NCBI RefSeq assembly: GCF_025231485.1
Contig: NZ_CP104003.1
Coordinates: 930,001 to 994,000, forward strand
DNA: 64,000 nt
Source of the DNA: Salinirubellus salinus
GTDB taxonomy: Archaea > Halobacteriota > Halobacteria > Halobacteriales > Haloarculaceae
Direction: 5' to 3'
Both the position numbers and the translations under genes were made by a program. Position 1 is the stretch's first letter, and each line of letters begins with the position of its first letter. This document shows, in pieces, positions 3,870-37,191 of this stretch. The notes under the pieces were generated by a model. That model had not been told where the DNA came from. It saw only the letters and a program-made list of their open reading frames with translations, and ran no database searches.

Positions 3870-3911
3870 CTTTTCGGCAGACCTAAACCCTCGTACGACC
3901 CCGCTCTACTC

Positions 3912-4601
3912 GTGAGCGAAGCGTACACGTTCGACGACGTGAGCGTCGTCATGGGGACGTACAACGAGGAAGCCGCCATCGCCACCGTACTCTCGGACAT
4001 CGACCAGGTCACCGACGGGCGTGCGGAGGTGGTGTGCGTCGACGGCAGCGACGACAGGACGCCCGACATCGCGCGTGAGCACGGCGCCATCGTCGTCGAG
4101 CAGGAGCCGCAGGGCTACGGTGTCGCGGTCCGTGAGGCACTCCTCACGGCCTCTCGGCCCGTCATCGTCACCACGGACTGCGACGACACCTACCCGATGG
4201 AGGCACTGCCGCGGTTCCTCGAGCTGATCAACGAGGGCTACGACGTCGTCAGCGGGGACCGGCTCTATCACGGTGCCGAGGCGATGCCTCTGTTCAACCG
4301 GCTCGGGAATCAGGGGTTCGCCCTCCTCGCCTCTCTGCTGATGGGCGAACGCGTCCACGACACCACCACGGGGATGCGGGCCTACCGGCGCGAGGTGATC
4401 CGCGAGAACCGTTTCACCCAGAACACCGGGCTCTCCGCGGAACTGCTGATTCGCCCGCTGATGCGGGGCTACAGGGTCCGTGAGGAGCCCATCGAGTACG
4501 CCGAACGACTCGGCGAGACCAAACTCGACCCCATCCAGGGCGGGTGGGAGATCGGCGCCAGCATCGTGAAGGTCTGTCTCGAAGAGCAGTTCCGTCGCTG
4601 A
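3912..4601 (+). CDS. Family 2 glycosyltransferase, dolichyl-phosphate hexose synthase-like
   Basis: A 229-residue GT-A fold enzyme without C-terminal membrane helices. Motifs in order: VSVVMGTYNEEAAI (nucleotide-sugar binding start), VVCVDGSDDRT, the metal-binding region TTDCDDTYPMEALPRFLELI (a DxD-type acidic cluster near residue 95), DTTTGMRAYRREV and the acceptor-side ERLGETKLDPIQGG. This pattern fits enzymes that load a sugar onto dolichyl phosphate for archaeal N-glycosylation (Agl-type), acting at the cytoplasmic membrane face. The GTG at 3912 fits the family N-terminus. The gene is the last ordinary chromosomal gene before the accessory island. The exact sugar cannot be read from sequence. 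Confidence 0.88.
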   Translation: MSEAYTFDDVSVVMGTYNEEAAIATVLSDIDQVTDGRAEVVCVDGSDDRTPDIAREHGAIVVEQEPQGYGVAVREALLTASRPVIVTTDCDDTYPMEALPRFLELINEGYDVVSGDRLYHGAEAMPLFNRLGNQGFALLASLLMGERVHDTTTGMRAYRREVIRENRFTQNTGLSAELLIRPLMRGYRVREEPIEYAERLGETKLDPIQGGWEIGASIVKVCLEEQFRR

Positions 4602-7162: not shown

Positions 7163-7178
7163 CGTACGATTCGAGGGT

Positions 7179-10123: not shown

Positions 10124-10138
10124 GAGTCTCAGGCGGAG

Positions 10139-11348: not shown

Positions 11349-11364
11349 CCCGGCTCTCGGCGTA

Positions 11365-12366: not shown

Positions 12367-12480
12367 ACGCGTCGGGCCCGGCAGCGACCGTATTAGTTGT
12401 GAGGGGGTGACATCCGGGTTTCCGATACGATTCGCGACGCTCCAAATCGGTTCTCCGGCAGAGGACAATTCGTTGCGTGG

Positions 12481-12488
12481 TTATATTA
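12481..12488 (+). promoter_or_regulatory. TATA-like element for the BREX-like operon
   Basis: ttatatta within an AT-rich patch of an otherwise GC-rich gap lies about 90 nt upstream of the DUF499 start. Transcription would begin near 12510, leaving a leader of about 60 nt. Confidence 0.4.
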
Positions 12489-12570
12489 TCTCCCCAGCAA
12501 TTAATCCGCCAACGCCATTGGGTTCAGCCAACCGGCCCTCGGAGGCGAATCTCCGTAGAATGCCACAACC

Positions 12571-15300: not shown

Positions 15301-16225
15301 GGGCCTCTACGGTATCGACGAGGTGCGTCACCTCGTCAACGACGACCCGTTCGACGCCCTGTTCGAGTGCCTGCGTCGCATCTGGGACGCGGATGATGCC
15401 TTCGAGGCCAAGCAGGTCGCTGACCGGGAGTACCGGACGCGGCTCCTCGAACGAGAGATTTCACGGCAGTACCCCGATCTGTACGACGACTTGGTCGATC
15501 GAGTGGGCGACCATCCGCTGATGGAGCTGACCGACGGCTGCGGCATCATCATGGACGGCATGAGCCTCCGCGAGGGGTTCCGCTTGGCCGCCGACCTCGC
15601 CGAGGAACGGGACTGGACGGTGGAGTACGACTGGGCGGCCTGTGAGGGCCTGCCCACGGAGACGAAGTTCATCGCCCAGCCGTGGTTCAACGCGAACGGC
15701 GGCAAGCAGGCCAGCATGAAACACGACCATGTGGCCTACATCGGTGAACCGGAGGTGCCGCCGCTTCCGGGCACCTCGCCGGAGTACGTCTGGTCGCGCT
15801 TCCCCGACAAGCGACTCCACAACTCGCAGGAGGGCCAGTACACCCTGACGGAGCTCGTCGAGGTGTACGACGAGGCAAAGGAGTTGGTGATCGACATCAT
15901 CGAGGAGAGCGTCCACGACCGGTTCTTGGTGTCGAGCGACCACGGCTACGTGAATTTCAGCGGCAACAACCCCTACCGTCTCGCCGAGGAAGACGAAGCG
16001 ATTCTGAAGGAGAAGTTCAGTGGCCGTTACCGAGAGGTGGAACACAGCGGTCTGCTGCGGAAGCTGGAGCGAGATGGCATCATCCACCGCGCCGGCGGCC
16101 ACTACCTGATTCGAGGCCACCACAGCTGGACGAAGCGTGGTGCGACCTCGCGCATTGATCACGGGGGACTGACCCTCGTAGAGACGATGACTCCCCTACT
16201 GACGGTCGATACGACCGGTGACTGA
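15293..16225 (+). CDS. Minimal PglZ-like (alkaline phosphatase superfamily) protein
   Basis: A 310-residue protein between the DUF499 ATPase and the DUF1156 methyltransferase, overlapping the former by 8 nt and ending 1 nt before the likely ATG of the latter. Residues 84-95 (GIIMDGMSLREG) match the metal-binding Asp (88) and nucleophile position (Ser91) of the phosphatase fold. Residues 213-220 (VSSDHGYV) supply the paired Asp-His metal ligands, and HGGLTLVETMTPLL (290-303) matches the closing His-Gly-Gly-(L/S)-x-x-E motif of PglZ. It is much shorter than PglZ of classical BREX (about 600-900 residues), keeping little beyond the catalytic core. Assignment rests on these three motifs. Confidence 0.7.
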   Translation: MSRGLYGIDEVRHLVNDDPFDALFECLRRIWDADDAFEAKQVADREYRTRLLEREISRQYPDLYDDLVDRVGDHPLMELTDGCGIIMDGMSLREGFRLAADLAEERDWTVEYDWAACEGLPTETKFIAQPWFNANGGKQASMKHDHVAYIGEPEVPPLPGTSPEYVWSRFPDKRLHNSQEGQYTLTELVEVYDEAKELVIDIIEESVHDRFLVSSDHGYVNFSGNNPYRLAEEDEAILKEKFSGRYREVEHSGLLRKLERDGIIHRAGGHYLIRGHHSWTKRGATSRIDHGGLTLVETMTPLLTVDTTGD

Positions 16226-16226
16226 T

Positions 16227-18872
16227 ATGGAGACCTGGAACAAACTACCCCTCGAACTCATCGACGAACTGGCGGAGAAAGAGACCTACCGACGCGACAT
16301 CTACCGGCCCATCTACTCGCTCCACAAGTGGTGGGCACGCCGTCCGGGCTCCACGTTCCGATGCCTCGGCCTCGCCGCACTCAGCGACGACAGTGTCACC
16401 AAGGACGACATTCTTCGAGAGGTGCCTCAGACGGGCACACATGAGGGGCTGTACCTCAATCCAAGCAAAGACAGAATCGACAACGATGCAGTAGTTCTTG
16501 ATCCGTTCGCTGGTGGCGGTACAAGTCTAGTTGAGTTGAATCGACTCGGTGCGGATGTCATCGGGTACGAGCTGAATCCTGTGGCATGGTGGATTCAAAA
16601 GAAGTCGATGGATGAAGTCAATATTGAGGTTCTGAGGTCTGAGTTCGACCGTATAATCCAAGAAACGAGAGAAGAAGTTGCCAACCTCTATACGACGACC
16701 AATCCGCAGACCGGTGAAGAGTGCGAAGTACTCTACTACTTCCAGTCTCAGAAAATTCCGTGCTTGACCTGTGATGAAGAGGTTCAACTCTTCCCGCGTT
16801 ACCAGCTAGCAAAAACAAAGGCGACCCGACCTGGAGCCCTATATTGTCCTAACGAAGAGTGTGACGACCGGGTTATTGAGCTACGTGACAGAAAAAAGGG
16901 TCTTGATGCCGGTGACGAGGTGACCGTCGAGGACGGACAGCCAGTCGAGGTAACTGAAGATGGAAACGAGGTTTGTCCCAGTTGCGGGCACGAGTTCGAT
17001 CCAAACGACGGTAATGCCGGATACGGGAAGTACACATGTTCTAACGGGCACAAGCACGACATCAAGGAAACCCTCCAGCGCCGAGATCGGGCACCTCAGT
17101 TCGAGAGATTCGCCCTCCAGTACGTCGATGCTCGCGGGGAAAAGAAGATAAAACAGTTCGACGAGAGCGATGCTGAGTCTGTCAAAGCTGCCCGAGAGCG
17201 ACTTGAGGATGCCCGAGCAGACCTGCCTATCCCCTCACAAGAGATACCAGAAGGTATGGCGATGACGACTGGCGCGTTGCTAAACTACAACTACACGAGG
17301 TTCAGCGAACTATTTACCGACCGACACCTTCTGACCTTTGGGCTTTTGTTCAGGAAGGCGTGGGCAGTCCGCAGTAACCAGTTTGAGGAAGCCGATGCGC
17401 AGAACATCGCTGAGTTTCTCGTCACAGCCATCTCGAACTGCTTAGAGCGGAACAGCAAACTCTCCATGTGGGACTACGGCGATCAGAAGGGGTTCAATGT
17501 GTTCAAGCGACACGCATTCATCCCACGTGTCCAACCTGTTGAGTCGAATCCACTTAACCACGAAGGAACCGTCGCCTCCCTCCAGAACTTCTTTGATAAG
17601 GTCGAACGAGCTAAGCGATACTGTGAAAGACCGTTCGAGAAGGTCAAGAACCGCCAAAGCGGCTCGGTTGAGCAGTTCTATATCAACTCGGAATCGGTTA
17701 GCGAGTCCCGAGTCGCTGGGCTAAACTGCCAAACAGCAGAACAGCTGTCGGAGTCTGATGAGTCAGTTGATTACGTCATCACGGATCCACCGTATTATGA
17801 TAATGTCCAGTACTCGAAGCTCTCGGACTACTTCTATGTCTGGCTCCGTGAGTGCCTTCAGGATGAGTACGAACAGTTCGAGCCTGAACTAGTTCCGAAG
17901 GCCAGAGAAATCGTCTCCAACCGGAAGTCGGGGAAAGATGAGGAGTTCTTCGTCGAATCTCTGACCAACGTCTTCGAGGAGTCACATCGTGTCCTGAAGC
18001 AGGACGGCGAACTGCTGTTCACCTACCACCACAACGAGAACGAGGCGTGGTCAGTCATTCTCGAGGCGCTGATCAAGAGTGGTTTCACCGTTACTGGAGC
18101 CTATCCCGTCCAGTCGGAGATGCCGAACAGCCCCCACATCAAGGATCTCGACAACGCTGAGTACGACATCCTCGTCTTCGCCAACAAAGACGAGGCTGAC
18201 GAGGAAATCACCCTCTCTGAGTTGCGCAACGAACTCTACTTCGAGGTCGAGGATCTCATCGAAGAGGAGCGTGAGCGTCACGAGAACCTCTCCACGGCCG
18301 ATCTCGGCGTCATCCTCCGCGGGAAGTGTATGTACCACTACTCCAAGCACTACCCCGAGGTGTACGCTGACGGCGAGCAGGTCGGTGTCAAACAGGCACT
18401 CGACACCGTCGACAGCGTCATCGAGCAGGTCGTCGAAACCTCTGTCGACCTCCCCTCCAGCATCGATCCGCTGTCGAGGTCGTTCGCGTGGCTGGTCGAC
18501 CGCCAACCTGTTGAGTTCAACGACCTGAACAAGCACCTGATGGCGAAGGGGCTGAGCATGGAGGATCTCACCGACGAGGCGCTGGTGACGGGAGAGAAGC
18601 CGGAGAAGCGAGCGCAGACAGTCGAGGAGCGGCTGGAACTCATCGAGAAGAAACTCGGTGGATCGAACAACGCCCCCGACCAAGGCGATGACCTGCTCGC
18701 CATCGACAAGGTACAGTACCTCGCGCATCTGTATCGCACAGAGCAGAACACCCTTGAGTACCAGAAAGCCTGGAAGACGCACGACCTCGTGGAGTTGGCA
18801 AAGTTCATCGCCGATGCTACCGGAAATGAAGTCTACGAAAATGCGTTGGAAGCCAACGCGTTAGGGTGGTAA
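16227..18872 (+). CDS. DUF1156-type adenine-specific DNA methyltransferase with Zn ribbons
   Basis: An 881-residue enzyme. The entry motif YSLHKWWARRPGS is typical of DUF1156 (COG1743). The SAM-binding motif is LDPFAGGGTSLVELNRLGAD (about residues 91-110), and the catalytic DPPY box is ITDPPYYDNVQYSKLSDY (Asp520 onward), predicting N6-adenine methylation. Between them sit cysteine clusters (CLTC, CPNEEC, CPSCGHEF, CSNGHKH; about residues 180-280) forming zinc ribbons, probably for target recognition. I start at ATG 16227, one base after the PglZ-like stop; GTG 16218 is possible. Codon use drops to much lower GC3 between about 16,440 and 17,960 and recovers afterwards, suggesting a recombined middle section. 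It should provide self-modification for the operon. Confidence 0.85.
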   Translation: METWNKLPLELIDELAEKETYRRDIYRPIYSLHKWWARRPGSTFRCLGLAALSDDSVTKDDILREVPQTGTHEGLYLNPSKDRIDNDAVVLDPFAGGGTSLVELNRLGADVIGYELNPVAWWIQKKSMDEVNIEVLRSEFDRIIQETREEVANLYTTTNPQTGEECEVLYYFQSQKIPCLTCDEEVQLFPRYQLAKTKATRPGALYCPNEECDDRVIELRDRKKGLDAGDEVTVEDGQPVEVTEDGNEVCPSCGHEFDPNDGNAGYGKYTCSNGHKHDIKETLQRRDRAPQFERFALQYVDARGEKKIKQFDESDAESVKAARERLEDARADLPIPSQEIPEGMAMTTGALLNYNYTRFSELFTDRHLLTFGLLFRKAWAVRSNQFEEADAQNIAEFLVTAISNCLERNSKLSMWDYGDQKGFNVFKRHAFIPRVQPVESNPLNHEGTVASLQNFFDKVERAKRYCERPFEKVKNRQSGSVEQFYINSESVSESRVAGLNCQTAEQLSESDESVDYVITDPPYYDNVQYSKLSDYFYVWLRECLQDEYEQFEPELVPKAREIVSNRKSGKDEEFFVESLTNVFEESHRVLKQDGELLFTYHHNENEAWSVILEALIKSGFTVTGAYPVQSEMPNSPHIKDLDNAEYDILVFANKDEADEEITLSELRNELYFEVEDLIEEERERHENLSTADLGVILRGKCMYHYSKHYPEVYADGEQVGVKQALDTVDSVIEQVVETSVDLPSSIDPLSRSFAWLVDRQPVEFNDLNKHLMAKGLSMEDLTDEALVTGEKPEKRAQTVEERLELIEKKLGGSNNAPDQGDDLLAIDKVQYLAHLYRTEQNTLEYQKAWKTHDLVELAKFIADATGNEVYENALEANALGW

Positions 18873-18878
18873 TTGGAT

Positions 18879-19271: not shown

Positions 19272-19295
19272 CGGAGCGCAGGTGGCTCCCTCGCT

Positions 19296-19727
19296 CTATG
19301 GGCCCGTGTACCGCCGGAGATGTTCCCGAAGGTCGTCCTGTACCGGCTGCTTCAGGTCGCCCTCGTTCTCCGCCACCCACGTCACCAGTTCATTCACTCC
19401 CTCGTCGAACTGTTGCCGTAGCATCTTGATCGTGCGATGCCGTTCCGTCAGTCCGGAGTGGTCGAGGTAGAGCCGAACCCCTGCGCCGGTCTCGGTCAGT
19501 TGGTACGCGTGGGAGGTTCCACGGCCCTGAATTTCCTGGCGCTCGTACAGTCCAAGCTCCTCGCCCTCCTGGAGACGGGTTGAGACCGTCGAACGGCTGA
19601 CCGACACTCCCTCCACTAAGCGGTTGAACTGGCTGCCGTCGGGGTTGATCTCACAGAGCAGTTCGACCGCCCCCTTGGCCCCCAGATGAGCCGAGAGGGT
19701 CACGTCCGTGCCATCGTCACCACTCAT
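19296..19727 (-). CDS. Winged-helix transcriptional regulator
   Basis: A 143-residue regulator converging on the BREX-like operon. Residues 16-60 form the helix-turn-helix (GAKGAVELLCEINPDGSQFN, then VSVSRSTVSTRLQEGEELGL), with a wing containing HAYQLTETGAG and a helical C-terminal dimerisation tail. The core is built like the regulator at 4997-5350 on the far side of the island. Start is ATG at 19725-19727, preceded by an AT-rich promoter-like stretch (actaatacttgggg near 19753-19766). Target unknown; the neighbouring operon is the obvious candidate. Confidence 0.8.
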   Translation of the reverse strand: MSGDDGTDVTLSAHLGAKGAVELLCEINPDGSQFNRLVEGVSVSRSTVSTRLQEGEELGLYERQEIQGRGTSHAYQLTETGAGVRLYLDHSGLTERHRTIKMLRQQFDEGVNELVTWVAENEGDLKQPVQDDLREHLRRYTGP

Positions 19728-20000
19728 ACGACCAATAGTACACTCTAAACCATACTAATACTTGGGGTTAATTGGTGGTGGGCGGGGTTCACGTTAATCG
19801 ACACGCGTTTACGCGTTCGAACAGTCGGCTAGAGTCGATTGGGGATGTCACCAGCATCCCGGCAAACGAGGCATCTAGACTCCGCCAGTTTAGTCCAAAC
19901 TGTACCATCAACAGGTAACATGTCGCTCACGAACGCGATGGACGCGGTGACATCGGCCCCGAGGAGACACCGGGCCGTCACACTCCTGAACCTCCCGTAG
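19728..20000. other. Left flank of the insertion sequence, with a 26-codon frame abutting the transposase
   Basis: This gap holds the promoter of the winged-helix gene at its left and the left part of the insertion sequence. A frame ATG 19920 to TAG 19998-20000 encodes 26 residues starting MSLTNAMDAV and ends exactly where the transposase ATG begins. It could be a leader peptide, a remnant of a longer N-terminus, or chance. I could not identify terminal inverted repeats by eye. Confidence 0.35.
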
Positions 20001-21905
20001 ATGCCTCTCGACGAGCCCCTCCAACACGCGGTGACAAATGCGCGGTCACAGGCGGAGGAGCTCTTCCTCGAGCGGGGCAACCTCACATACGTTATCGGGA
20101 AGCTCGTCCTGCCGATTCATCTGCTTGAGGACGACCACGACCACAAGACCAGCAACCCGTATGATTTCGAGGGGATGCTCAAGCTCCGTCTCTACCGGCT
20201 TACGACCGATATGAGCCAGGAGGCACTCTCTGATCGGCTTGACAGCTGGCCCTACCTCCAGCAGCGGTTCGGCTTGGATGGTGCCCCGGCGCAGGAGACG
20301 ATTTCCTACACGGAGCGAAACCGATTCGGGCTGACCACCCGCCGCTTCCTGCGAAAAGTGGCCGAGGTGCTTGCCGAGTTGGCCGAGGAGCACGACGCGA
20401 CCTACAGCCCCGACGAGTCCCCGGACACCGATCCGTCACCCGAAGAGATTGAAGCCAGTAGCGAGCCGATTCACCACTACGTTGATCGGCACGCCACGGA
20501 TGTCATCAGGGGGGCACAGAACGAGGTGTGGCCGGAGCTCAACACGGGACGTGCCGAAAACATCAAACATGAAGACGAGAGGGTGTGGGAGCATCAGACC
20601 GCGATGAGCCTCGTTGATCGGGCCGGCACGCACTCCGCATTCCGCACCTTCAACAAGTTCCGGTGGGATGCCCTCCACCACGACTCCCACCTCTACGCGG
20701 TACAGAAGCTCGGCATCCCCGACGATTACGCCTACGACCCCTCCGAGTACCCCGGCGCCGAACTCCCCACTCCCAGCTGGCAGGAGGTCACTACCGCCAT
20801 CCAAAACCAGTTCAACCCCGCCATTGACCGGTTGATGGCCAACATCGCACCGACGAGGCTCTTCACCGAGCCGGTGGTGGCCGCCATCGACTCGACGCAC
20901 GATCCGTTCAATGTGTCCCCCTACAAGAGTGAGGAGGACGTTGAGCCGGGCGACGACCGGGTTGTTGTGGACGAGCAGACTGGAGCCACGAGGGTGCCCA
21001 AGGACGACTACCCCGAGATGGTGAACGGCGGCGAGGGCAAAAACACGTACCAGTACGAGTATGCGACCCTCACGGTCGTCGGCCGGAACGCACCGATCGT
21101 GTTGGCGGTCGAGCCGATCCGACACCACTCGACGTGGGAGGGGGAGGACGGTGAGTCTGTCAGCTGGGCCGAGGTGGTTGACCGCCTCCTCACGCAGGCC
21201 CGGAAGCACGTCGACATCGACCTCGTGATGGCCGACCGCGCGTTCGAGGGACACGCCGTCGGTCACGTCATCGACCAGTACCACGACCTGAACTACCTGA
21301 TTCCAAAGAAGAAGAACGCGACCGTCGGCGGGGAGAACGTCGGCGACAAGCTGAGCGACGTGAAGGAGGACATGGAGCTCCGGAGCCGCGTCGAGCGCGA
21401 CGCGTCCCTACACCTACGATCGGACACTCCGTACGTGGACGTGGCGAGCGACCCGACCGTTGGCGAGGACAGGTACAGCCACGATTCGAGCTTTCTGTAC
21501 GTCCCGGCGGAGGACGAGGAGTGGGCCATCGACGAGGACAACGAGTATGCCGTCTTCGTGACGAACATCGACGACGTCTCCCCGATGGAGGCCATCGGCC
21601 TCTCGGATGAATATTCCAAGCGTTGGGATATAGAAATCAACTACAAGATGGTGAAGCCGTTGCTGCCGTCGATTCGGTCGACGGACTTCCGGATGCGGTT
21701 CTTCGCGTTCGCGTACAGCCTGCTGATGTACAATCTATGGCGGATGGTGGATCACGCGATGAAGACGCTGGCGTCGGAGGTGTACGAGGAGTACGGTCGG
21801 GGGCCGCACGAGAAGCGACTGGATCCGCTGTTGACGCAGGCGGATCTTCATATGACGTCGTTGGTGCTGATGATGATGCCGGATGGGCTTGACCCGCCGT
21901 TCTGA
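20001..21905 (+). CDS. DDE transposase (IS4-superfamily-like, haloarchaeal type)
   Basis: A 634-residue transposase starting MPLDEPLQHAV. The N-terminal 250 residues are helical DNA-binding (LRLYRLTTDMSQEALSDRL, then a His-rich segment). The DDE core shows VVAAIDSTHDPF with the first Asp (about residue 299), LVMADRAFEGHAVGHVI with the second Asp, and YSKRWDIEINYKMVKPLLPS carrying the Y-x(2)-R-W-x-I-E signature of IS4-type elements with the catalytic Glu. The C-terminus has LLMYNLWRMVDHA. The frame is intact, so it may be active. Exact IS family and ends not determined. It marks the right edge of the accessory island. Confidence 0.85.
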   Translation: MPLDEPLQHAVTNARSQAEELFLERGNLTYVIGKLVLPIHLLEDDHDHKTSNPYDFEGMLKLRLYRLTTDMSQEALSDRLDSWPYLQQRFGLDGAPAQETISYTERNRFGLTTRRFLRKVAEVLAELAEEHDATYSPDESPDTDPSPEEIEASSEPIHHYVDRHATDVIRGAQNEVWPELNTGRAENIKHEDERVWEHQTAMSLVDRAGTHSAFRTFNKFRWDALHHDSHLYAVQKLGIPDDYAYDPSEYPGAELPTPSWQEVTTAIQNQFNPAIDRLMANIAPTRLFTEPVVAAIDSTHDPFNVSPYKSEEDVEPGDDRVVVDEQTGATRVPKDDYPEMVNGGEGKNTYQYEYATLTVVGRNAPIVLAVEPIRHHSTWEGEDGESVSWAEVVDRLLTQARKHVDIDLVMADRAFEGHAVGHVIDQYHDLNYLIPKKKNATVGGENVGDKLSDVKEDMELRSRVERDASLHLRSDTPYVDVASDPTVGEDRYSHDSSFLYVPAEDEEWAIDEDNEYAVFVTNIDDVSPMEAIGLSDEYSKRWDIEINYKMVKPLLPSIRSTDFRMRFFAFAYSLLMYNLWRMVDHAMKTLASEVYEEYGRGPHEKRLDPLLTQADLHMTSLVLMMMPDGLDPPF

Positions 21906-21960
21906 GGGCGGCGATTTGGTAATTCTCCTGACTGGTTAGGGGCTGGTATGTTCGGTGTGC
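20001..21960 (+). mobile_element. Insertion sequence (extent approximate)
   Basis: An intact DDE transposase gene occupies nearly the whole element. The boundaries given are only the gene plus a little of the right flank, since no inverted terminal repeat or target-site duplication could be established by eye. Confidence 0.45.
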
Positions 21961-22493
21961 TTGGTTTGCGGCCCTGATTTCTCAGACTTAGTATGATTAG
22001 GTCGTTGGGGCGGGGAGCCAGCCTCGGCTGACCCCGAACTCGTCGGTTCACCCCCGAAGATCGAGCAACTCGCTTGGTAACCACCCCTACTTTCCGAAAC
22101 TGTGCGATGTTCGACACGCGACACCAGACAGTCGAGAGCAGGCGCCAGCACCCCGTTACCGGGAGTTCGGCCTCATGGGTCGCCACCACCTGACCGTCTG
22201 CGGCGACCGTGACACCGCTCGAGCCGCGGTCACACCTCGGCGGCCCACGACTGTCCACCGCCGAGTTCGGTGGGCCGCGACCACGTGCCGTCCCAGTGTA
22301 GCCCTCGCAGCGGCGGACAGCGTCGTCGCCAACATCTCGCCGGGGAGATTCGGTTCGCGTCGCTCGAGAGATCGAACGTTCCGGGCAGACTCCTGGTGGT
22401 AGCGCCGGCCGTCCCCAGTTCGACGGTGGCCTACCGGCCCGTCGCGTGGGCGACGCCACGCTGGCCACGACCGAGTCCGTCGTCGTCGTCACC
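21906..22493. other. Gene-free stretch right of the insertion sequence
   Basis: About 590 bases. The first 100 or so are AT-richer and probably belong to the insertion-sequence right end. The rest is GC-rich but no frame shows convincing codon bias or a known motif on either strand, and no tRNA is present. It may be decayed chromosomal sequence at the island edge. Confidence 0.5.
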
Positions 22494-24686
22494 TCACCGC
22501 GTCGGCACGGAGGCGCTCGTGGCGTTCCCCTCGCCCGACGTCGTCAGGGCGCGCACGCTGACGCCATCGAGGTACTCCCCGCCGGCGTCACCGAGGTAGG
22601 TCGCCTCCGTCCCGCAGTCCGGAGTGAGGCGACAGACCCGCGTCTCCGGTGGCCACACGAGCGCGACGCCGTCGGTCGTCTCCCGGACCGTGGCCTCCTG
22701 TCGGTACGTGACCGTCGCCCCACCCTCCTGGACGAACGTCACCGCGAGGGACACCTCGGCGGCGCCGTCGTACCCGACCCGACCGTCACCGCGTGGGACG
22801 AAGCCATCGCCGGTGACCCGGGCCGCACCCGGCTGGACCGACCACGGGACGGTGAGGTTCCCCGTGGGGTCGGCGGTGACGTCGTAGACGGCCGCCCGGT
22901 CGCCGACCTCGAGCCGGACGCTCGACGGCTCACCCACCACCCCGACCGTCGTCCGGATCGCGTGGCTCGACCCCTGCTGGACCTGCAATCGCTGTATCGA
23001 CGCGACCACGTCGGGACGGGGGTCGGGCGTCCACGGCCCGCGGTAGGTGTAGCGGTACAGGTCGCGATCCGGGTGAGCGTCGAGGACGGCGAAGTCCTCG
23101 TCGGGACCCCGGTCCAGCGCGTAGACGACGGGACCACGCAGGTCGCCGTCGTTCTGGAGCGACTGGAACGGGTGGCCGAGCCAGTCGCCGTACGGGTTCG
23201 GGACGAACACCAGCGCATCCTCGAAGGCCGGGTCCGAGCCGAACGGGCCACGTTCCCAGTCACCCCCGGCACGGCTCTGGAAGGGCGCGTAGGCCTGCTC
23301 GTAACGGTCCGTGTACGTCGCGTGCCGTTCGACCGGGTCGTCGAGCGCGCCCACCGTGGTGACGCCGGCGACGGCGAGGCCGGCGACGAGCAGCACACCG
23401 AGGGCCACGCGCGTGTCGCGCGTGGAGAGGTCTCCCTCCTCGGCCGCCTCTCGGAGCCGGCGCCACGAGACGACCAGGCCGGCGGCCGTGAACGCCGAGA
23501 ACGGCAACAGCAGGTCGAAGTGGTAGAACGGACCCAGCACGGCGATCAGCCCGTCGTTCGGGTCCGGGAGATCGGCCAGCACGTTCAGGTTCCCCCAGAA
23601 CAGCACGTTCCCGGCCGTGACCGTCACGGCCACGGCGGCGAACGTGACCCGCAGTGTCTCGTCGTACGCGTTGTAGACTCGGTCGGCGCGCCGCGCGACC
23701 GCACGTGGGCCTACCACGTCGGCGAGCGGGCCGACGGTGAGCACGAGTCCGAGCAGGGCCACGACCGGCCCGACCGGTGGCGCGAACGCCCACCTCGTGA
23801 GGTACGCGAACACGACGCGTCCGTTCGCCTCGAGTGCGAGGGCCGGCGTGTAAACCCTATCGTACGATAGGATTCGTCGCTCGCCGAACCCGAGCCCGTC
23901 GAGTGGTGCGAACGCCTGGTACGGGAAGACGAACGGGTCGCCCGTCGTCAGCGAGTTGTAGTAGAGTGCGGTGGCGACGCCGGCGAGGCCCAGCACCGCG
24001 AGCAGCGCGTTCCGACCGAACGACCGGACGAGGACGTCGTACTTCTCCTCCAACGCCGCGTCCAGCAGCGCGTACATCGCGTGCAGGACGAACGGAAGCG
24101 CGAACAGCACCGCCGTGTACGGGCGCGAGAAGAACGCGAGCCCCAGCGCGACGCCGGCGAACGCGGCGTACCCGAGGCTGTCTCTCCGCACAGAGCGGAC
24201 GTACCCCAGCGCGAACGCGAGGTTGAACATCGTCGTCGTCGCGTAGGGGAGGAACGTCGCGGACTGGACGACGAAGAGGGGTGTGGCCGCGGCCACGCCG
24301 CCGGCGACGACGCCGACCCGACGGTCGAACGCCTCGGCCGTCAGCAGCCCGACGAGGAAGACGTTCGCGAACGCGACGAACGCCAGCGCGAGGCGAGCCT
24401 CGCCGAGGGCCATCGCGAGCGCGAACACGCCGGGCGGGACCGGGGCGTACTTCGGGTAGAGGCGCGCGCCGTCCTCAACGAAGAACCACCAGCGGAACGC
24501 CTCGGGTACCTCGCTGGCGAACCAGAGTCGACCGTCGAGGAGGAGGCGGGCCTGCTGGAGGTAGACCCCCTCGTCGTGGTTGAGCGAGTGGTACGGCAGG
24601 AGTTCGACACTCGTGTAGAGCGCGAGCGCCGCGGAGACGAGAGCGATGGCGCCGAGGGCGACCGTCTCTCTCGGTGGCCGTCTCAT
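22494..24686 (-). CDS. GT-C type membrane glycosyltransferase (family 39-like)
   Basis: A 730-residue integral membrane protein with a hydrophobic first helix (TVALGAIALVSAALALYTSV) and about 11-13 membrane segments over the first 470 residues. A large, beta-rich, extracytoplasmic C-terminal domain follows. The first loop carries the GT-C acidic motif LNHDEGVYLQQARLLLDG (HDE), and a second loop has the YPKYAPVPPG motif of ArnT/PMT-like enzymes. It probably transfers a sugar from a dolichyl-phosphate donor on the outer membrane face. The GT2 enzyme at 3912-4601 could make such a donor; the accessory island now separates the two. Ends just downstream of the iron ABC operon, 43 nt from its ATPase stop. 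Confidence 0.82.
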   Translation of the reverse strand: MRRPPRETVALGAIALVSAALALYTSVELLPYHSLNHDEGVYLQQARLLLDGRLWFASEVPEAFRWWFFVEDGARLYPKYAPVPPGVFALAMALGEARLALAFVAFANVFLVGLLTAEAFDRRVGVVAGGVAAATPLFVVQSATFLPYATTTMFNLAFALGYVRSVRRDSLGYAAFAGVALGLAFFSRPYTAVLFALPFVLHAMYALLDAALEEKYDVLVRSFGRNALLAVLGLAGVATALYYNSLTTGDPFVFPYQAFAPLDGLGFGERRILSYDRVYTPALALEANGRVVFAYLTRWAFAPPVGPVVALLGLVLTVGPLADVVGPRAVARRADRVYNAYDETLRVTFAAVAVTVTAGNVLFWGNLNVLADLPDPNDGLIAVLGPFYHFDLLLPFSAFTAAGLVVSWRRLREAAEEGDLSTRDTRVALGVLLVAGLAVAGVTTVGALDDPVERHATYTDRYEQAYAPFQSRAGGDWERGPFGSDPAFEDALVFVPNPYGDWLGHPFQSLQNDGDLRGPVVYALDRGPDEDFAVLDAHPDRDLYRYTYRGPWTPDPRPDVVASIQRLQVQQGSSHAIRTTVGVVGEPSSVRLEVGDRAAVYDVTADPTGNLTVPWSVQPGAARVTGDGFVPRGDGRVGYDGAAEVSLAVTFVQEGGATVTYRQEATVRETTDGVALVWPPETRVCRLTPDCGTEATYLGDAGGEYLDGVSVRALTTSGEGNATSASVPTR

Positions 24687-24729: not shown

Positions 24730-25986
24730 TCACGAGCCCGAACGGTCGACTCGGCCCCCGTCCGCCATCCGACGCTTCCCGCGGGGGAACCACGCGAGGT
24801 CGTGGTCGGCGGCGAGGCGGACGTGGACGGGCGAGTCGAGCGGCACCTCGTCGGCGTGGTTGTGCATCACGCCAATGGTGTCGCCCGAGTCCAGTTCGAC
24901 GCGGTAGAGGACGGTCGGGCCGAGGTAGCGTCGGTGGACGACGGTCCCGTTCGGCTCGCCCTCACCCTCCCGGCTGCAGGCCACGTCGTCGGGCCGGACG
25001 AGGACGTCGATGTCCGAGCCGTCGTACTCCGCGGTCAGCCCGTGTACCCGGTCGAGCGAGACCGTCCCGAGCCCCGTCCGCACCAGGCCTCCCTCCACCG
25101 TGCCCGCGAGGAACGAGGCGTGTCCGAGGAAGGAGGCGACGAACCGCGACTCCGGCTGCTGGAACACCTGCTCGGGGCGTCCCACCTGTTCCAGTCGGCC
25201 GTCGTACATCACGGCCACGCGGTCGGAGATGCTCATCGCCTCCTCCTGGTCATGGGTGACGGAGACGGCGGTGACGCCGGCCTCCTTCAGGATACGCCTG
25301 ACCTCCTCGCGCATCTCGACCCGGAGGTCGACGTCCAGGTTCGAGAACGGCTCGTCGAGCAGGAGGAGGTCGGGTTCGGGCGCCAGCGACCGGGCGAGTG
25401 CCACCCGCTGCTGTTGGCCCCCGCTCAGTTCGTCGGGGTACTTCTCGCCGTGTTCGGTCAGCCCGACGAGTTCGAGCAGGTCCTCGACGCGCTGGTCACG
25501 CTCCGGGTGGTCCTCGATACCGAACGCGACGTTCTCTCGCGCGGTGAGGTGCGGGAACAGCGCGAACTCCTGGAAGACGACACCGACGTCACGCTCCTCG
25601 GCCGGGGCGAACCGGCTCCCGTCCGCGACCACCTCGTCCTGCAGGCTGATGGTCCCCTCGGATGGCTCCTCGAGACCGGCGACGAGCCGGAGTGTCGTCG
25701 TCTTCCCACAGCCCGAGGGACCGAGCAGGGTGAGCAGCTCACCCTCGCGTACCGAGAGCGACAGATCGTCGATGACCGTCGTCCCGCCGTAGCGTTTGGT
25801 CACCGCGTTGAGTTCGAGGACCGTGTCGGCGTCCGGGTCACGCTGGGGGCGGCCGTACCGGAGCTGGTCGGCCACCCCGTCACGTTCGGCCTCGCGTTCG
25901 AGTGTCTCACTGCCCGCGCGCCGGTCACGCCGGTCACTCCCGCTCGACTGGACCGAGGGCTCGCTCTGTTCGCCCTCGCTACTCAT
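24730..25986 (-). CDS. ABC transporter ATP-binding protein (Fe(III)/spermidine-type, FbpC/PotA-like)
   Basis: A 418-residue ATPase. After a roughly 55-residue charged extension come Walker A (GPSGCGKTTTLRLV), the Q-loop (VVFQEFALFPHLT), the signature LSGGQQQRVALARSL, Walker B (LLLLDEPFSNLD) and the H-loop (VSVTHDQEEAMSI). A C-terminal TOBE/OB regulatory domain follows (DIDVLVRPDDVACS to VPLDSPVHVRLAADHDLAWF). I start at ATG 25984-25986, overlapping the permease stop (ATGAGTAG). It is the last gene of the binding protein-permease-ATPase operon and powers uptake at the cytoplasmic membrane. The long N-terminal extension is unusual. Confidence 0.92.
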   Translation of the reverse strand: MSSEGEQSEPSVQSSGSDRRDRRAGSETLEREAERDGVADQLRYGRPQRDPDADTVLELNAVTKRYGGTTVIDDLSLSVREGELLTLLGPSGCGKTTTLRLVAGLEEPSEGTISLQDEVVADGSRFAPAEERDVGVVFQEFALFPHLTARENVAFGIEDHPERDQRVEDLLELVGLTEHGEKYPDELSGGQQQRVALARSLAPEPDLLLLDEPFSNLDVDLRVEMREEVRRILKEAGVTAVSVTHDQEEAMSISDRVAVMYDGRLEQVGRPEQVFQQPESRFVASFLGHASFLAGTVEGGLVRTGLGTVSLDRVHGLTAEYDGSDIDVLVRPDDVACSREGEGEPNGTVVHRRYLGPTVLYRVELDSGDTIGVMHNHADEVPLDSPVHVRLAADHDLAWFPRGKRRMADGGRVDRSGS

Positions 25987-27604
25987 CCTGGTCACCTCCG
26001 CCGAGTTCGTACTTCTCTGTGGCGAGGATGACGAGCATCGACAGCGCGGAGACGAACAGCAGGACGAACGCGGGGAAGGCGGCCTGTCCGTAGTAGCCCG
26101 ACTGCTGGACCGACCAGATGTAGGTGACGAGCGTCTTGAACTCCGGCGGGCGAAGGAGGAGCGTCGCCGGGAGTTCCTTCATCGTCGTGAGGAAGACGAG
26201 TGCCGCCCCGCCGAGGACGCCGGGGAGGACGAGCGGGAAGGTGACCCGTCGGAACGCCTCGCGCGGCGTGTGCCCGAGGGTGCGTGCGGCCTCCGGCAGC
26301 GTGTTCGAGACGCCGAGGAACGCCGCGCGCGACGACCCGAGCGCCTGAGGGAGGAATCGAACCACGTAGGCGAATATCAGCAGGGGCAGGAGTATGAGTC
26401 CTTCGCGATACAGGTTGCCACCGTAGCGCGCCCCGAAGAACACGAGTGCGAGTCCCATCACCACGCCGGGGACGGCGTAGCCGACGTAGGACGCACGTTC
26501 GAGCAACCAGGGCAGCGGGTGGTCGCTCCGCGTCGAGAGGTAGGCGATGGGGAGGGCGGCGAGCGCGCAGACCAGCGCCGCGGCCGCCGCGACGGCGACC
26601 GAGTTCAGCGCGTAGGTCGGCTGGAACGCGAGCGAGGGGGTCGCGCTGCCGCGGACGAGCCAGAGTGCGAGGATACCGAGCGGGACGACGAGGGCGAGCG
26701 ACGCCACCGCCAGACAGGCGGCGACCGCGGGCCACCGCCAGCGACCCAGTCGGACCGTCGTGCCACGGCCGGTCCGGTCGGACTCGACGCCGCTCCCACG
26801 GACCCGCGACTCGACGGCGAGGATGACGAACGTCACGACGACCAGCTGCAGCGAGAGCAGGGAGGCGAGGTCACGCCCGCCACCGAGCACGTCGTTGTAC
26901 TCGACGAAGATGACCCGCGTGAACGCGTCGAACCGCATGATGGCAGGCGTCCCGAAGTCGGAGAGGGTGTAGAGCGCGACCAGCAACGCCCCGGCCGCCA
27001 CCGCGGGCCTGATCTGTGGGACGGTGACCCGTTTGAACGCCTGCCACTTCGTGTGTCTCAGGGTCCGGGCCGCGTCCACGAGCCGCGTGTCCATCGACTG
27101 GAGGCTCGCCCGCGTGGTGATGTAGACGTACGGGTACGTGTAGAGGGTCAGGACGAGCACGGTCCCGCCGAGGCCGTAGATGGAGGGGAGTTGCTCGACG
27201 CCGAACGGGGCGAGTAGGTCCTGGAGCTGCCCACGGGGGCCGAACGCCGAGACGAACGCGAACGCGCCGATGTAACTGGGGACGACGAGCGGCATCGCCA
27301 GCAGGACGGTGAACGCCCGCCGTGCCGGGAGGTCGGTCCGGACCGTCAGGTACGCGGTGGGGACACCGAGGAGGATGGAGGCGGTGGTGACCCCCACGAC
27401 CAGCAGGGCGCTGTTGAGGAACACCTGGACGGTGGTGGGACGGGTGAGCAGCCGGAGCCAGTCCGAGGCGTCGAGCGCGCTGGCGAGGACCCAGAGCAGT
27501 GGCGAGAGCACGACCGCCGCGATGGCCGCCGAGAGGAGCGTCAGCCCGACCGGTAGCTCCTCGTCGCCCCCTCGCAGCGCGGCGAGTCGGCTCCGGGTCG
27601 ACAT
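25979..27604 (-). CDS. Fused ABC permease for ferric iron (FbpB/ThiP-like, two permease modules)
   Basis: A 541-residue membrane protein with about twelve helices in two homologous halves. Each half has the EAA-type coupling loop: ARTLRHTKWQAFKRVTVPQI (first) and EAARTLGHTPREAFRRVTFP (second). This duplicated single-chain architecture is typical of iron(III) and thiamine ABC permeases. Start ATG 27602-27604 (MSTRSRLAAL), one base after the stop of the binding-protein gene; the end overlaps the ATPase start. It forms the transmembrane channel of the same transporter. Confidence 0.92.
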   Translation of the reverse strand: MSTRSRLAALRGGDEELPVGLTLLSAAIAAVVLSPLLWVLASALDASDWLRLLTRPTTVQVFLNSALLVVGVTTASILLGVPTAYLTVRTDLPARRAFTVLLAMPLVVPSYIGAFAFVSAFGPRGQLQDLLAPFGVEQLPSIYGLGGTVLVLTLYTYPYVYITTRASLQSMDTRLVDAARTLRHTKWQAFKRVTVPQIRPAVAAGALLVALYTLSDFGTPAIMRFDAFTRVIFVEYNDVLGGGRDLASLLSLQLVVVTFVILAVESRVRGSGVESDRTGRGTTVRLGRWRWPAVAACLAVASLALVVPLGILALWLVRGSATPSLAFQPTYALNSVAVAAAAALVCALAALPIAYLSTRSDHPLPWLLERASYVGYAVPGVVMGLALVFFGARYGGNLYREGLILLPLLIFAYVVRFLPQALGSSRAAFLGVSNTLPEAARTLGHTPREAFRRVTFPLVLPGVLGGAALVFLTTMKELPATLLLRPPEFKTLVTYIWSVQQSGYYGQAAFPAFVLLFVSALSMLVILATEKYELGGGDQDE

Positions 27605-27605: not shown

Positions 27606-28781
27606 CTACACCGAGATACCGACGTCGCGGAGCAGTTCGATGGTCGGTCCGAGGTCGGCGAGTTGTGAGAGGTCGAGGTCGCTCGGCGGGTTCAGTTCGT
27701 CGATGGTCGGCAGGTCGCCGACCGGTTCGACCCCCGGGATGAGGGGGTACTCGAACGTCGTCGTGGCGAAGTACTCCTGCGCCTCGGCCGAGAGCAGGTG
27801 TCGGACGAAGTTCGCCGCCATGTCCGTGTCGTCGGCCGTGTCGACGACTGCCGCGCCAGCCACGTTGAAGATGGCACCGGCGTCGTTCTCCGTGAACGCC
27901 GTGGCCAGCGGGGCGTTCGGCCGCCCGTCGAGCACGCGCTGGATGTAGTAGTGGTTCGTGAACCCGGCGGAGATCTCGCCGTCGGCGATGGCCTGCGAGA
28001 TGGCGAACTCGTCGCTGTACGACTGCACCCCGAGGTCGAGCATCCCCTGGAGCCAGTCACGGGTCGCCGATTCGCCGTTCAGCACGCGCATCGCGGTGAC
28101 GAACGCCTGGAACGACCCGTAGGAGGGCGCCCACCCCAGCTCGTTCTGGAACTGCGACTGCTCGGGGAAGGCGAAGATGTCGTCGGGGATGTCCGACTCG
28201 GAGAACGTCTCGGTGTTGTACGGGACCGTCCGGGCGCGGCCGGAGGTGCCCACCCAGCGACCCTGCGGGTCCTCGAACTCGTCGCGGACCAGGTCGAGGA
28301 CCTCGTCCGGGAGCGTGGTCGCTCGGCCCTGCCCGGCGAGGGCACCCAGCGCGCCCGCGTTGACCGAGTAGAACACGTCGGCGGGGGAGTTGTTCCCCTC
28401 CGTGAGGATCTGGTTCACGAGGTCCGTCGAGCCGTCGTAGCGGACCCGCAGGGTCAGGTCCGGGTAGAGGTCCTCGATGTACGAGACGAGCGAGCCGACG
28501 AGCGCCTCGCCGCGGCCGGAGTAGACGTCGATGGTGCCAGAGAGGTCGGGCATGTCCGCCATCGGCGTACCGCCCGGGGCGCCACGGCCCTCGCGGCCGG
28601 AGCCGATCTGTCCCGGTCCGGGCTCGTCCGGGGTGTCCGAGTCGCCCTCCGTCGGCGTCGAGTCCTCGCCCGGCGTCGGCGTGTTCGAGCCCGTGCTACA
28701 GCCCGCCAGCGCCGAGATGCCGGCAACGCCGGAGAGCGCGAGCACCCGGCGACGGGTTGTCGGCTTCACGTCCTCGTTCAT
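27606..28781 (-). CDS. Extracellular iron-binding lipoprotein of ABC transporter
   Basis: A 391-residue substrate-binding protein. The N-terminus is a Tat lipoprotein signal (TTRRRVLALSG, lipobox ISALAGC), followed by a Thr/Pro/Asp-rich linker. The mature part is a type 2 periplasmic-binding fold of the Fe(III) family (GTIDVYSGRGEALVGSLVSY, DVFYSVNAGALGALAGQGRA, VPYNTETF, FTNHYYIQRVL), with the Tyr pairs such proteins use for ferric ion. I start at ATG 28779-28781, since longer readings run through the iron-box promoter. It is first in its three-gene operon, 7 nt after a perfect TTTAGG-N4-CCTAAA palindrome, so expression is expected to rise when iron is scarce. Confidence 0.9.
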   Translation of the reverse strand: MNEDVKPTTRRRVLALSGVAGISALAGCSTGSNTPTPGEDSTPTEGDSDTPDEPGPGQIGSGREGRGAPGGTPMADMPDLSGTIDVYSGRGEALVGSLVSYIEDLYPDLTLRVRYDGSTDLVNQILTEGNNSPADVFYSVNAGALGALAGQGRATTLPDEVLDLVRDEFEDPQGRWVGTSGRARTVPYNTETFSESDIPDDIFAFPEQSQFQNELGWAPSYGSFQAFVTAMRVLNGESATRDWLQGMLDLGVQSYSDEFAISQAIADGEISAGFTNHYYIQRVLDGRPNAPLATAFTENDAGAIFNVAGAAVVDTADDTDMAANFVRHLLSAEAQEYFATTTFEYPLIPGVEPVGDLPTIDELNPPSDLDLSQLADLGPTIELLRDVGISV

Positions 28782-28787: not shown

Positions 28788-28803
28788 TTTAGGCTCTCCT
28801 AAA
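28788..28803 (-). promoter_or_regulatory. Iron-box operator (DtxR/IdeR-type) before the Fe ABC operon
   Basis: tttaggctctcctaaa is a perfect 6-4-6 inverted repeat 7 nt from the start codon of the iron-binding protein. TTAGG-N4-CCTAA palindromes are recognised by the DtxR-family iron regulators (Idr/SirR) of haloarchaea. Occupancy here would block initiation. Confidence 0.75.
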
Positions 28804-28884: not shown

Positions 28885-30054
28885 TCAGTCATCGTCGGCC
28901 CTCGCCGTCGCAGGGGTCGCACGCGGTGCGTCGAGCGCCGCGAGACAGTCCAGCCAGTCGCGCATGTGCTCGCCGACGAAGTTGAGGAACCCGCCGTTGT
29001 TCCACTCGTCGAACTCGCCGTCGGCCAGCGCGTCGGCCATCGCCGCGAACGCCTCGCGGTAGGAGTCGGCCCCGTCGCCCACCTCGTCGACGACCTTCCA
29101 GACGTGCTCGTTGAGTTCGAGCGCCGGCACCTCGTTGTTCAGGTCGTCGAACGTCGAGCGGGGCGCCTTGTTGTGCTCGCAGAGCGGCGTCCCCGTGAGG
29201 ATCTGGTCGCCGAGCAGGTCGGCAGCGCGTTTGAGGAAGACACCCGACCAGATGTCGTCGAAGCGGCCCACGTCCCACTCGTTGTCGTCCATCGGCAACT
29301 GGTAGAACGCCGGGACCACCTCGCGGCGGAACGCGAGGTTCATCGAACAGACCGTGAGGTACTGGCCCGGTTCGGCGACGAAGTCCTCGTCGAAGTCCGC
29401 GCGGGTCGTCCGGGTGGCGGCCTGTCCGCGCAGGTCGCCGTCCATCAGGATGCGGACCGCGTCGAGGTCCGGGACGTTCGTCCAGAGGCCCTGCGAGGCG
29501 ACTACGTCGCCCGCGGCGAGCGTCGTGGTGCCGATCTCCACCGTCTCGTCCATCGCGGCGTACGGATAGCCACGGGGGTAGAGGCCGTGCTCCTCGAAGT
29601 TCTCGAAGAGGACGTTGACCCAGTTCTCGTCGGAGCGCACAGCAGTCACCTCGCCCGAACGGTCGAGGTTCGTGTAGTGCCCCCCGAAGAAGTCCGTGTC
29701 GTGCGGGAGGGTGTCGTCGTCGATGAAGAAGCCGTAGTCGAACTGCTCGTTGGCCCAGAGGTAGAGGAGGCCGAAGCTCGTCTCGGCGTGGCTCGCCGCC
29801 GGGATCACGTGGTCGTACTCGTCGACGTCCTGTTCGCGGTACCAGTCGGCCCGGTCGCTCGCGTCGAAGACCCGGCCGGCCACGTCGAGGTCGGCGAGCA
29901 TCTCGCGCATCCGCTCGGTGTCACAGAAGTCCTCTGTCACGAGACAGAAGAAGAGGCGGTCGGCGTGTCCGTGTTCGCGGGCGTTGGCGACGTACTCGCG
30001 GACGCACTCGTACTCTCGGATGGTCGGGACCACCACGCAGGTGTCCGGTTGCAT
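28885..30054 (-). CDS. Reversibly glycosylated polypeptide / UDP-arabinopyranose mutase-like protein
   Basis: A 389-residue soluble protein. Motifs include TCVVVPTIREYECVREYV (nucleotide-sugar binding start), FDYGFFIDDDTLPHDTDFFG (the DDD metal site), AVRILMDGDLRGQAATRTTR and CSMNLAFRREVVPAFYQLPM. This is the RGP family (GT75 in plants: UDP-Ara pyranose/furanose mutase); archaeal roles are not settled. Start ATG at 30052-30054. Two identical iron-box palindromes lie 13 and 42 nt upstream. It is transcribed toward the Fe ABC operon, whose own iron box is in the 103-nt gap between them. Its link with iron is therefore regulatory; a part in a surface glycan or siderophore-like glycoconjugate is speculative. 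Confidence 0.82.
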   Translation of the reverse strand: MQPDTCVVVPTIREYECVREYVANAREHGHADRLFFCLVTEDFCDTERMREMLADLDVAGRVFDASDRADWYREQDVDEYDHVIPAASHAETSFGLLYLWANEQFDYGFFIDDDTLPHDTDFFGGHYTNLDRSGEVTAVRSDENWVNVLFENFEEHGLYPRGYPYAAMDETVEIGTTTLAAGDVVASQGLWTNVPDLDAVRILMDGDLRGQAATRTTRADFDEDFVAEPGQYLTVCSMNLAFRREVVPAFYQLPMDDNEWDVGRFDDIWSGVFLKRAADLLGDQILTGTPLCEHNKAPRSTFDDLNNEVPALELNEHVWKVVDEVGDGADSYREAFAAMADALADGEFDEWNNGGFLNFVGEHMRDWLDCLAALDAPRATPATARADDD

Positions 30055-30066
30055 TGGCTCCTAGTG

Positions 30067-30082
30067 TTTAGGCCGTCCTAAA
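30067..30082 (-). promoter_or_regulatory. Iron-box operator, proximal copy
   Basis: tttaggccgtcctaaa, a perfect TTTAGG-N4-CCTAAA palindrome 13 nt before the RGP-like start codon. Identical to the copy at 30096-30111. Confidence 0.75.
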
Positions 30083-30095
30083 GTAGTTGTCGAAG

Positions 30096-30111
30096 TTTAG
30101 GCCGTCCTAAA
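30096..30111 (-). promoter_or_regulatory. Iron-box operator, distal copy
   Basis: A second exact tttaggccgtcctaaa, 29 nt from the first start-to-start, close to three helical turns. Tandem copies suggest cooperative binding of a DtxR/IdeR-type repressor. Confidence 0.75.
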
Positions 30112-36308: not shown

Positions 36309-36350
36309 TCTAGGCGGACCGAAACCTTTTACCGATTAGGGCAGCCTAAA
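36309..36350 (+). promoter_or_regulatory. Iron-box-like operator pair before the DUF7331-type gene
   Basis: A good TTAGG-N4-CCTAA palindrome (36336-36349) lies 8 nt before ATG 36358. A degraded copy, tctaggcggaccgaaa (36309-36324), matches the 30067 box at 12 of 16 positions. The layout (two sites just ahead of a start codon) mirrors the RGP-like promoter. Confidence 0.6.
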
Positions 36351-36645: not shown

Positions 36646-37191
36646 TCAGTTCGTCGCGCTCTCGACGACCAGCGAGTCGTCGTCGAGGTAGTGCTCGAAG
36701 TGGTGGGCGTGTTCCTCCAGGTCCTCGAGCGCCTCGCGGTAGACCTCGCCGGTCGTGTAGTCGCCGAAGTCCTCGACCATCCCGATGTGCTGGCGGACGG
36801 CCTCGATCATGTCGCCGAACATCTGCAGGTCGTGCTCCAGCGAGGTGCGCACGTCGTAGACGTCCGCGTCCTCGGGGGAGACGGTGGCGTGTTCCTCGTA
36901 GGTCGCGCCACCGCTGAGCGGGACGCCACCGAGGGCCTGCGCACGCTCGGCGAACTCGTCTGCGGCCTCCTCGAGGTCCGCGGCCACCTCACCGAGGTAG
37001 ACGTGCAGGTCGCGGAACTCGGCACCCTCCACGTTCCAGTGGTGCTTCTTGATCTGGTGGTACGCGACGTAGGTGTCCGCGAGGTCCGTGTTCAGCGCGT
37101 CGACGACCTGTTCGGCCTTCTCCGTGTCCATGCGGAGGCTGTTCTCCTCGACGGTGCCGGCCTGCTGACGGACTTCCTTCTGGGTGCTCAT
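36646..37191 (-). CDS. dpsA: DpsA, ferritin-like DNA-protection protein
   Basis: A 181-residue Dps. The ferroxidase signature at the dimer interface is YVAYHQIKKHHWNVEGAEFR and DLHVYLGEVAADLEEAADEF (His, then Asp/Glu ligands). The family C-terminal helix is EHAHHFEHYLDDDSLVVE. The N-terminal tail (MSTQKEVRQQAGTVEENSLR) is the haloarchaeal type. It oxidises and stores iron with peroxide, protecting DNA. Start ATG 37189-37191. No TTAGG-type box was found upstream, so it is probably regulated differently from the uptake genes (induced, not repressed, by iron or oxidative stress). Confidence 0.95.
   Translation of the reverse strand: MSTQKEVRQQAGTVEENSLRMDTEKAEQVVDALNTDLADTYVAYHQIKKHHWNVEGAEFRDLHVYLGEVAADLEEAADEFAERAQALGGVPLSGGATYEEHATVSPEDADVYDVRTSLEHDLQMFGDMIEAVRQHIGMVEDFGDYTTGEVYREALEDLEEHAHHFEHYLDDDSLVVESATN

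Follow-up and report, generated by a model that had tools for sequence, protein, structure and literature searches.

The stretch of DNA analysed here (the window) comprises 64,000 nucleotides (nt) of the haloarchaeon Salinirubellus salinus, contig NZ_CP104003.1, positions 930,001 to 994,000 (G000:C1:930001-994000). Its minus strand holds, in this order, a gene for an RGP-type protein preceded by two identical palindromes, a ferric solute-binding protein (SBP), a permease and an ATPase of an ATP-binding cassette (ABC) transporter, and a PMT_2/DUF7846 membrane protein of the GT-C glycosyltransferase type. RGP and the GT-C gene occur in exactly the same haloarchaeal genomes as a gene for a dolichyl-phosphate (DolP) hexose transferase of family GT2, which lies elsewhere in the window, and RGP is probably the sugar-supply enzyme of an iron-repressed, DolP-dependent surface glycosylation pathway. 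The features concerned are as follows.

30097..30110, minus strand: distal iron box, the palindromic 14-mer TTAGGACGGCCTAA, exact, beginning 56 nt before the RGP ATG
30068..30081, minus strand: proximal iron box, also TTAGGACGGCCTAA, exact, beginning 27 nt before the RGP ATG
28885..30054, minus strand: RGP, a GT75 nucleoside-diphosphate (NDP)-pyranose mutase-like protein of 389 amino acids (aa) (PF03214, match to MtdL, AlphaFold2 model)
28789..28802, minus strand: iron box of the ferric SBP gene, exact, 7 nt before the SBP ATG
27606..28781, minus strand: FbpA/HitA-type ferric-iron SBP (PDB 7w3w, E 2.8e-62)
25979..27604, minus strand: two-domain ABC permease, Fe(III)-type (BPD_transp_1 in two stretches)
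24730..25995, minus strand: ABC ATPase with TOBE domain (ABC_tran and TOBE_2)
22494..24686, minus strand: GT-C membrane glycosyltransferase with PMT_2 and DUF7846 (PF25230 E 2.6e-86, PMT_2 3.7e-7)
3873..3886, plus strand: one-mismatch iron box TTCGGCAGACCTAA of the DolP-hexose transferase gene, ending 25 nt before its GTG
3912..4601, plus strand: dolichyl-phosphate hexose transferase, GT2 (NF041391, 396.9 bits against a cut-off of 375)

The RGP product matches PF03214 (E 2.9e-14, 53.5 bits against the curated Pfam cut-off of 23.8), in agreement with the initial annotation, made from the letters of the window, as a protein of the RGP/UDP-arabinopyranose mutase (UAM) type. Among solved structures it is closest to MtdL, a GDP-sugar mutase (E 6.3e-25; 1e-29 with a profile). 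Folds were compared through an AlphaFold2 model (predicted local distance difference test, pLDDT, 88.3), which superposes on MtdL 7yua over 357 residues with Z 40.0 and a root-mean-square deviation of 2.6, and has the MtdL-type fold including the core and the C-terminal helices; the next solved chain is rice UAM2, a plant UDP-arabinopyranose mutase (Z 28.2), and GT-A enzymes are found lower. Residue equivalence was taken from the numbering of PMC9937993 and the alignment of RGP with MtdL. Residues D112-114, H294, R161, R264, S237 and D267 show no variation in 81 of 81 haloarchaeal RGP sequences, and their MtdL counterparts D109-111, H287, R159, R257, S228 and D260 serve Mn, diphosphate and sugar according to the available part of PMC9937993. 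The equivalent of the base-selective MtdL Ser86, S88, is likewise Ser in all 81, and section 6 of the same paper describes loss of GDP binding when Ser86 is changed to Asp. MtdL Thr13 seems, on our reading of the N-terminus, to be replaced by Pro, as in plant RGPs, which makes any base preference read from S88 tentative. By sequence and predicted fold, assignment to the class of GT75 NDP-sugar mutase-like enzymes is well supported. A UDP-arabinopyranose mutase in the strict sense, to which the initial annotation had likened the protein, was set aside: the closest solved relative is a GDP-sugar mutase, the plant enzyme comes second, and the base-selective S88 is invariant. Outside the archaea, an RGP-like stretch (33.6% identity, annotated as hypothetical protein) was seen on the Planctomyces sp. 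SH-PL62 plasmid NZ_CP011275.1, 75017-75673.

The two boxes before RGP had been described as identical and 29 nt apart, and both are indeed exact copies of the same 14-mer at that spacing. Four exact TTAGGN4CCTAA sites are present in the window (28789, 30068, 30097 and 36336). When up to two mismatches are allowed, 9 sites are counted in the window where shuffled sequence gives 4.27 on average, and therefore the signal resides in the exact sites. In the whole 4.38-Mb genome 12 exact sites were counted, against 1 for the reversed pattern. Those outside the RGP/SBP region precede FepB-type SBPs, a DtxR-family regulator and the small subunit of a dehydrogenase discussed below; another precedes a GTG-start frame with multiple transmembrane segments near an ABC ATPase, and one further box has a gene of iron-sulphur biosynthesis at a distance of about 150 nt. 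Judged by the company of the genes it precedes, TTAGGN4CCTAA is a predicted iron box. The DtxR-family gene (L005:2880-3278, minus strand) encodes a short protein with Fe_dep_repress (PF01325, E 1.7e-8). An exact box at L005 3350, 71 nt before its ATG, makes it a candidate autoregulated iron regulator, and the genome has two additional PF02742 genes. The exact window box at 36336-36349 faces a short open reading frame, with a Dps/ferritin-like gene (36646..37191, minus strand; PF00210, E 1.8e-29) about 300 nt beyond.

Of 391 Halobacteria genomes, 305 contain PF03214, and these represent 66 of 86 genera. A non-random set of 166 RGP copies, picked to span all 66 genera and including two named metagenome-assembled genomes, was read for boxes; the canonical-type second RGP of genome G010 was excluded from the counts. 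This second copy (L007/L078, G010:C2:1525556-1526527) scores 451.9 bits to PF03214 and has neither a box nor iron neighbours. An exact box stands at most 90 nt upstream in 155 of the 166 copies, a one-mismatch box in 4 and none in 7; by genus label the exact box is found in 64 of 68 (the 66 genera and the two metagenome-assembled genomes without label). Lack of boxes before homologues was what the initial annotation had named as speaking against its reading, and the pairing turns out to be widely kept. The reversed-pattern control, read in 167 upstream regions of 300 nt each, gave no exact and a single one-mismatch site. Since the box is conserved upstream of RGP while this control is almost empty, chance is ruled out as its source; the genome and window counts, set against their own controls, led to the same rejection. 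Six of the seven box-less copies have no adjacent SBP and the seventh, in G304, has an SBP match 2.7 kb away, while five box-bearing copies have no SBP within reach.

With one sequence per genus label (n=63) the box has the consensus T-TTAGG-N4-CCTAA-A in a constant position, and the bases ahead of it are rich in A and C and resemble a transcription factor B recognition element (BRE). Across the RGP class the position of the proximal box is kept at -26 to -37, and the 14-mer closest to the start codon mostly begins 26-35 nt upstream of it. Haloarchaeal genes are often leaderless, with the TATA element at a distance of about 27 nt from the start on its upstream side, and the box would therefore overlap the core promoter. 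Twin boxes as in the window are seen in a minority of 29 copies (two sites, at most one mismatch), and in 27 of these the spacing is 26-30 nt. An apparent fusion of RGP and SBP in L125 (G342) and L128 (G389), where the frame continues without a stop, was rejected and read as a frame artefact or run-on frame.

Comparison of the sets of genomes shows that RGP, GT-C (PF25230) and GT2 are present in the identical 305 genomes and that all three are missing from the remaining 86. For GT2 the distinction rests on best E-values of 1e-98 or lower in the 305 trio genomes as opposed to 1e-5 to 1e-31 among the 86 without the trio, ranges that do not overlap. Counted from genus labels, 42 genera have absences: RGP is wholly missing from 20 of the 86 genera and both states occur in 22, in each of which the genes must have been lost or gained jointly at least once. 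The control genome of H. volcanii has RGP and DUF7846. The finding of an operon under predicted iron boxes, headed by a member of a strict glycosylation set of three genes, is real, and it is a much stronger observation than the initial annotation stated. The box extends to GT2 as well, with an exact copy before 24 of 25 genes found by motif (control 0 of 25) and before 26 of 37 in a tblastn-based count with a narrower window. In 63 long loci, which cover 44 genus labels, the most regular members are RGP (63), SBP (58) and GT-C (47, a count that misses some GT-C genes falling beyond the fetched stretch); less regular are a convergent GT2 (28), UPF0104/LPG_synthase_TM (18) and an epimerase (16). 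GT2 and GT-C are convergent neighbours in many relatives, and in the window they are separated by a stretch of low guanine-plus-cytosine content (approximately 5000-22000) that contains a large DNA methylase (16218..18872) and a transposase-like open reading frame (20001..21905).

Close PDB relatives of GT2 are DolP-mannose synthase (5mlz, E 4.5e-14) and ArnC. The AlphaFold2 model of GT-C (pLDDT 85.7) has a GT-C fold and, compared through that model and mainly over residues 1-568, reaches Z 21-25.2 to oligosaccharyltransferase, PMT (O-mannosyltransferases) and ArnT, with arabinofuranosyltransferases lower; these fold relatives single out no acceptor. Pfam at E<=0.01, used as a check for STT3, yields only DUF7846 and PMT_2, yet AglB stands in the fold list. 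The acidic pair D38-E39 near the N-terminus, a feature expected of DolP-dependent GT-C enzymes, is invariant in 50 sequences.

Boxes are found on separate transcription units of the set, namely those of GT2, UPF0104, the dehydrogenase small subunit and SBP. Of 25 UPF0104 genes, 24 are preceded by a box with at most one mismatch, and in 6 of these it is exact. On a Salarchaeum plasmid eight genes are contiguous: RGP, SBP, iron permease, ATPase, GT39, gluconate-2-dehydrogenase subunit 3, GMC oxidoreductase and dolichyl-phosphate hexose transferase. The corresponding flavin adenine dinucleotide (FAD) sugar dehydrogenase pair (GMC and gluconate-2-dehydrogenase subunit 3) lies about 46 kb from RGP in the window genome, behind an exact box, and the small subunit has an exact box in 13 of 22 cases. 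The nearest solved relative of the GMC protein is an FAD glucose dehydrogenase, followed by fructose dehydrogenase. Among 337 genomes 262 have both RGP and GMC, 8 only RGP, 2 only GMC and 65 neither, at a GMC presence threshold of 1e-100 that was chosen after the table had been seen and with three RGP-positive genomes scoring intermediate. Co-occurrence of GMC with the trio (262 of 270 trio genomes) is strong but not strict.

The initial annotation was also correct in placing an Fe(III) transporter next door, as the FbpA/HitA-type SBP is followed by permease and ATPase. At E<=0.001 the SBP has matches to 28 distinct sequences in the PDB, almost all of which bear an iron-binding name, and its N-terminus carries a twin-Arg/lipobox-like motif; a homologue of the permease is annotated as iron ABC transporter permease. 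A phosphonate, spermidine or thiamine transporter, suggested by NCBIfam near-matches, was rejected because these all remain under cut-off and the PDB relatives are ferric-binding proteins.

The surface glycosylation reading draws strong context from the strict co-occurrence of RGP with the DolP-hexose transferase and GT-C, which are membrane-acting by family; the activity, sugar, acceptor and iron response of the pathway we infer. Under iron-replete conditions a DtxR-family regulator would sit on the TTAGGN4CCTAA boxes at the core promoter and block transcription, to be released at low iron. RGP, by analogy with MtdL, would interconvert NDP-hexopyranose and furanose by means of Mn and a transient sugar-Arg161 bond, and GT2 would, as its family does, charge dolichol phosphate with hexose. 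The hexose may then reach the outer face, perhaps, as a guess, via the UPF0104 membrane protein, where the GT-C/DUF7846 enzyme would move it to a surface acceptor, neighbouring SBP-type lipoproteins being candidates. The ferric SBP/ABC importer and the exported FAD sugar dehydrogenase pair would be made under the same boxes. The idea in the initial annotation of a surface glycan gains strong contextual support from the strict trio, whereas its suggestions that the glycan scavenges iron and is made only when iron is short remain at the level of the possible. One specific form, in which iron starvation leads the trio to build a furanose-bearing surface glycan that is oxidised by the exported dehydrogenase to acidic ligands, keeps Fe(III) at the cell surface and hands it to the FbpA-type lipoprotein, as a sugar-based, cell-bound counterpart of a siderophore, we consider decidedly doubtful.

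Several observations weigh against the proposed iron-repressed glycosylation pathway. Four genomes labelled g13 keep the trio with a best SBP match of only E 1e-4 to 1e-6, hence no recognisable SBP, and the three of their RGP copies that were read (G183, G337 and G360, with G277 left out) have no box, so that the glycosylation can evidently do without control by iron; it also weakens SBP as sole client of the glycosylation. Conversely, SBP-family matches better than 1e-90 turn up in 22 of the 86 genomes that have no trio, although these may be paralogues. In the table of proteins changed more than 10-fold in the H. volcanii iron proteome, the part of PMC11349517 available, RGP, GT39 and DolP transferase do not appear. 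Finally Haloarcula AepG, a related DolP transferase, serves an acidic exopolysaccharide, with no iron link stated in the available text of PMC9943897. Like the window GT2 it is a DolP-sugar synthase outside S-layer N-glycosylation, but it has two C-terminal membrane helices according to the same text while the GT2 of the window stops at 229 aa, and on this architecture alone AepG was set aside as its orthologue.

The g13 genomes, with RGP and GT-C kept in the absence of SBP and three copies box-less, would suit an account in which RGP, as a glycosylation gene of the ordinary kind, merely happens to head an iron-transporter operon and the boxes serve the transporter, as would the tight grouping of RGP, SBP, permease and ATPase on one strand. 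However, in 129 of the 155 loci with an SBP that gene owns a separate exact box at the same position as in the window while RGP retains one at its own start, the convergently transcribed GT2 is boxed too, as is UPF0104, and in many loci without nearby permease or ATPase RGP, SBP and GT-C still stand together; we therefore find a bystander role unlikely. That the SBP box is absent in 21 of the 155 loci even at one mismatch weighs against an iron-only role. It is similarly improbable that RGP acts in the same pathway as a GT-A glycosyltransferase or self-glycosylating primer and is no mutase at all. Eight haloarchaeal plasmid records do name it 'alpha-1,4-glucan-protein synthase', GT-A enzymes fill the fold list beneath MtdL and UAM, and GT75 enzymes autoglycosylate an Arg (PMC9937993, available part); on the other hand all 81 sequences retain the residues with which MtdL contacts Mn, diphosphate and sugar, the two Arg beside the anomeric carbon among them, and the second solved chain is itself a mutase. 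As for the metal, the DtxR family includes manganese sensors, and the box could answer to manganese, as with MntR-type regulators, or another metal rather than iron. A putative manganese transporter three genes upstream on the Salarchaeum plasmid and the requirement of GT75 enzymes for Mn or Mg (PMC9937993, same part) are in line with this, yet the boxes of the window genome precede FbpA-type and FepB-type SBPs, all of iron-linked families, which leaves sensing of another metal very unlikely.

The proposed iron-repressed glycosylation pathway resembles several known systems in part. With MtdL and plant RGP/UAM (CAZy GT75) the haloarchaeal RGP shares the fold, the DDD motif, the His, both Arg, the Ser and the Asp; unlike MtdL, to which it is about 25% identical, it is archaeal, iron-boxed and strictly partnered by a DolP-hexose transferase and GT-C. 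ArnC/ArnT and the protein O-mannosyl and other DolP-dependent GT-C systems likewise combine a GT2 that charges polyprenyl phosphate with a GT-C that uses it, to which the window set adds an NDP-sugar mutase, iron control and a C-terminal DUF7846. Compared with the NF041391 family, of which HVO_1613 is the studied founding member, GT2 here gains strict partners and an iron box. The haloarchaeal iron regulons of the DtxR-family proteins FerR, Idr and TroR also place palindromic boxes in the promoters of Fe(III)/siderophore SBP and DtxR-family genes, whereas here the boxes extend to the whole glycosylation trio; FerR is named, and the ferR regulon signal cited from Leyn & Rodionov 2015, in the available part of PMC11349517. 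The same part reports that in iron-starved H. volcanii a UPF0104 protein rises 11.6-fold and a GalE-family protein 12.7-fold; both families neighbour RGP, a match at family level only. In Creative Commons-licensed PMC papers on iron and glycosylation or on RGP in haloarchaea, no description of this pathway was found.

The analysis joins a GT75 enzyme of archaea that had not been characterised, a DolP-hexose transferase whose role was open and the membrane domain DUF7846 into one proposed pathway in 305 of 391 Halobacteria genomes. It places this glycosylation pathway under proposed iron control and makes the role of DolP-hexose testable in H. volcanii. If true, the archaeal iron-starvation response would gain cell-surface glycosylation.
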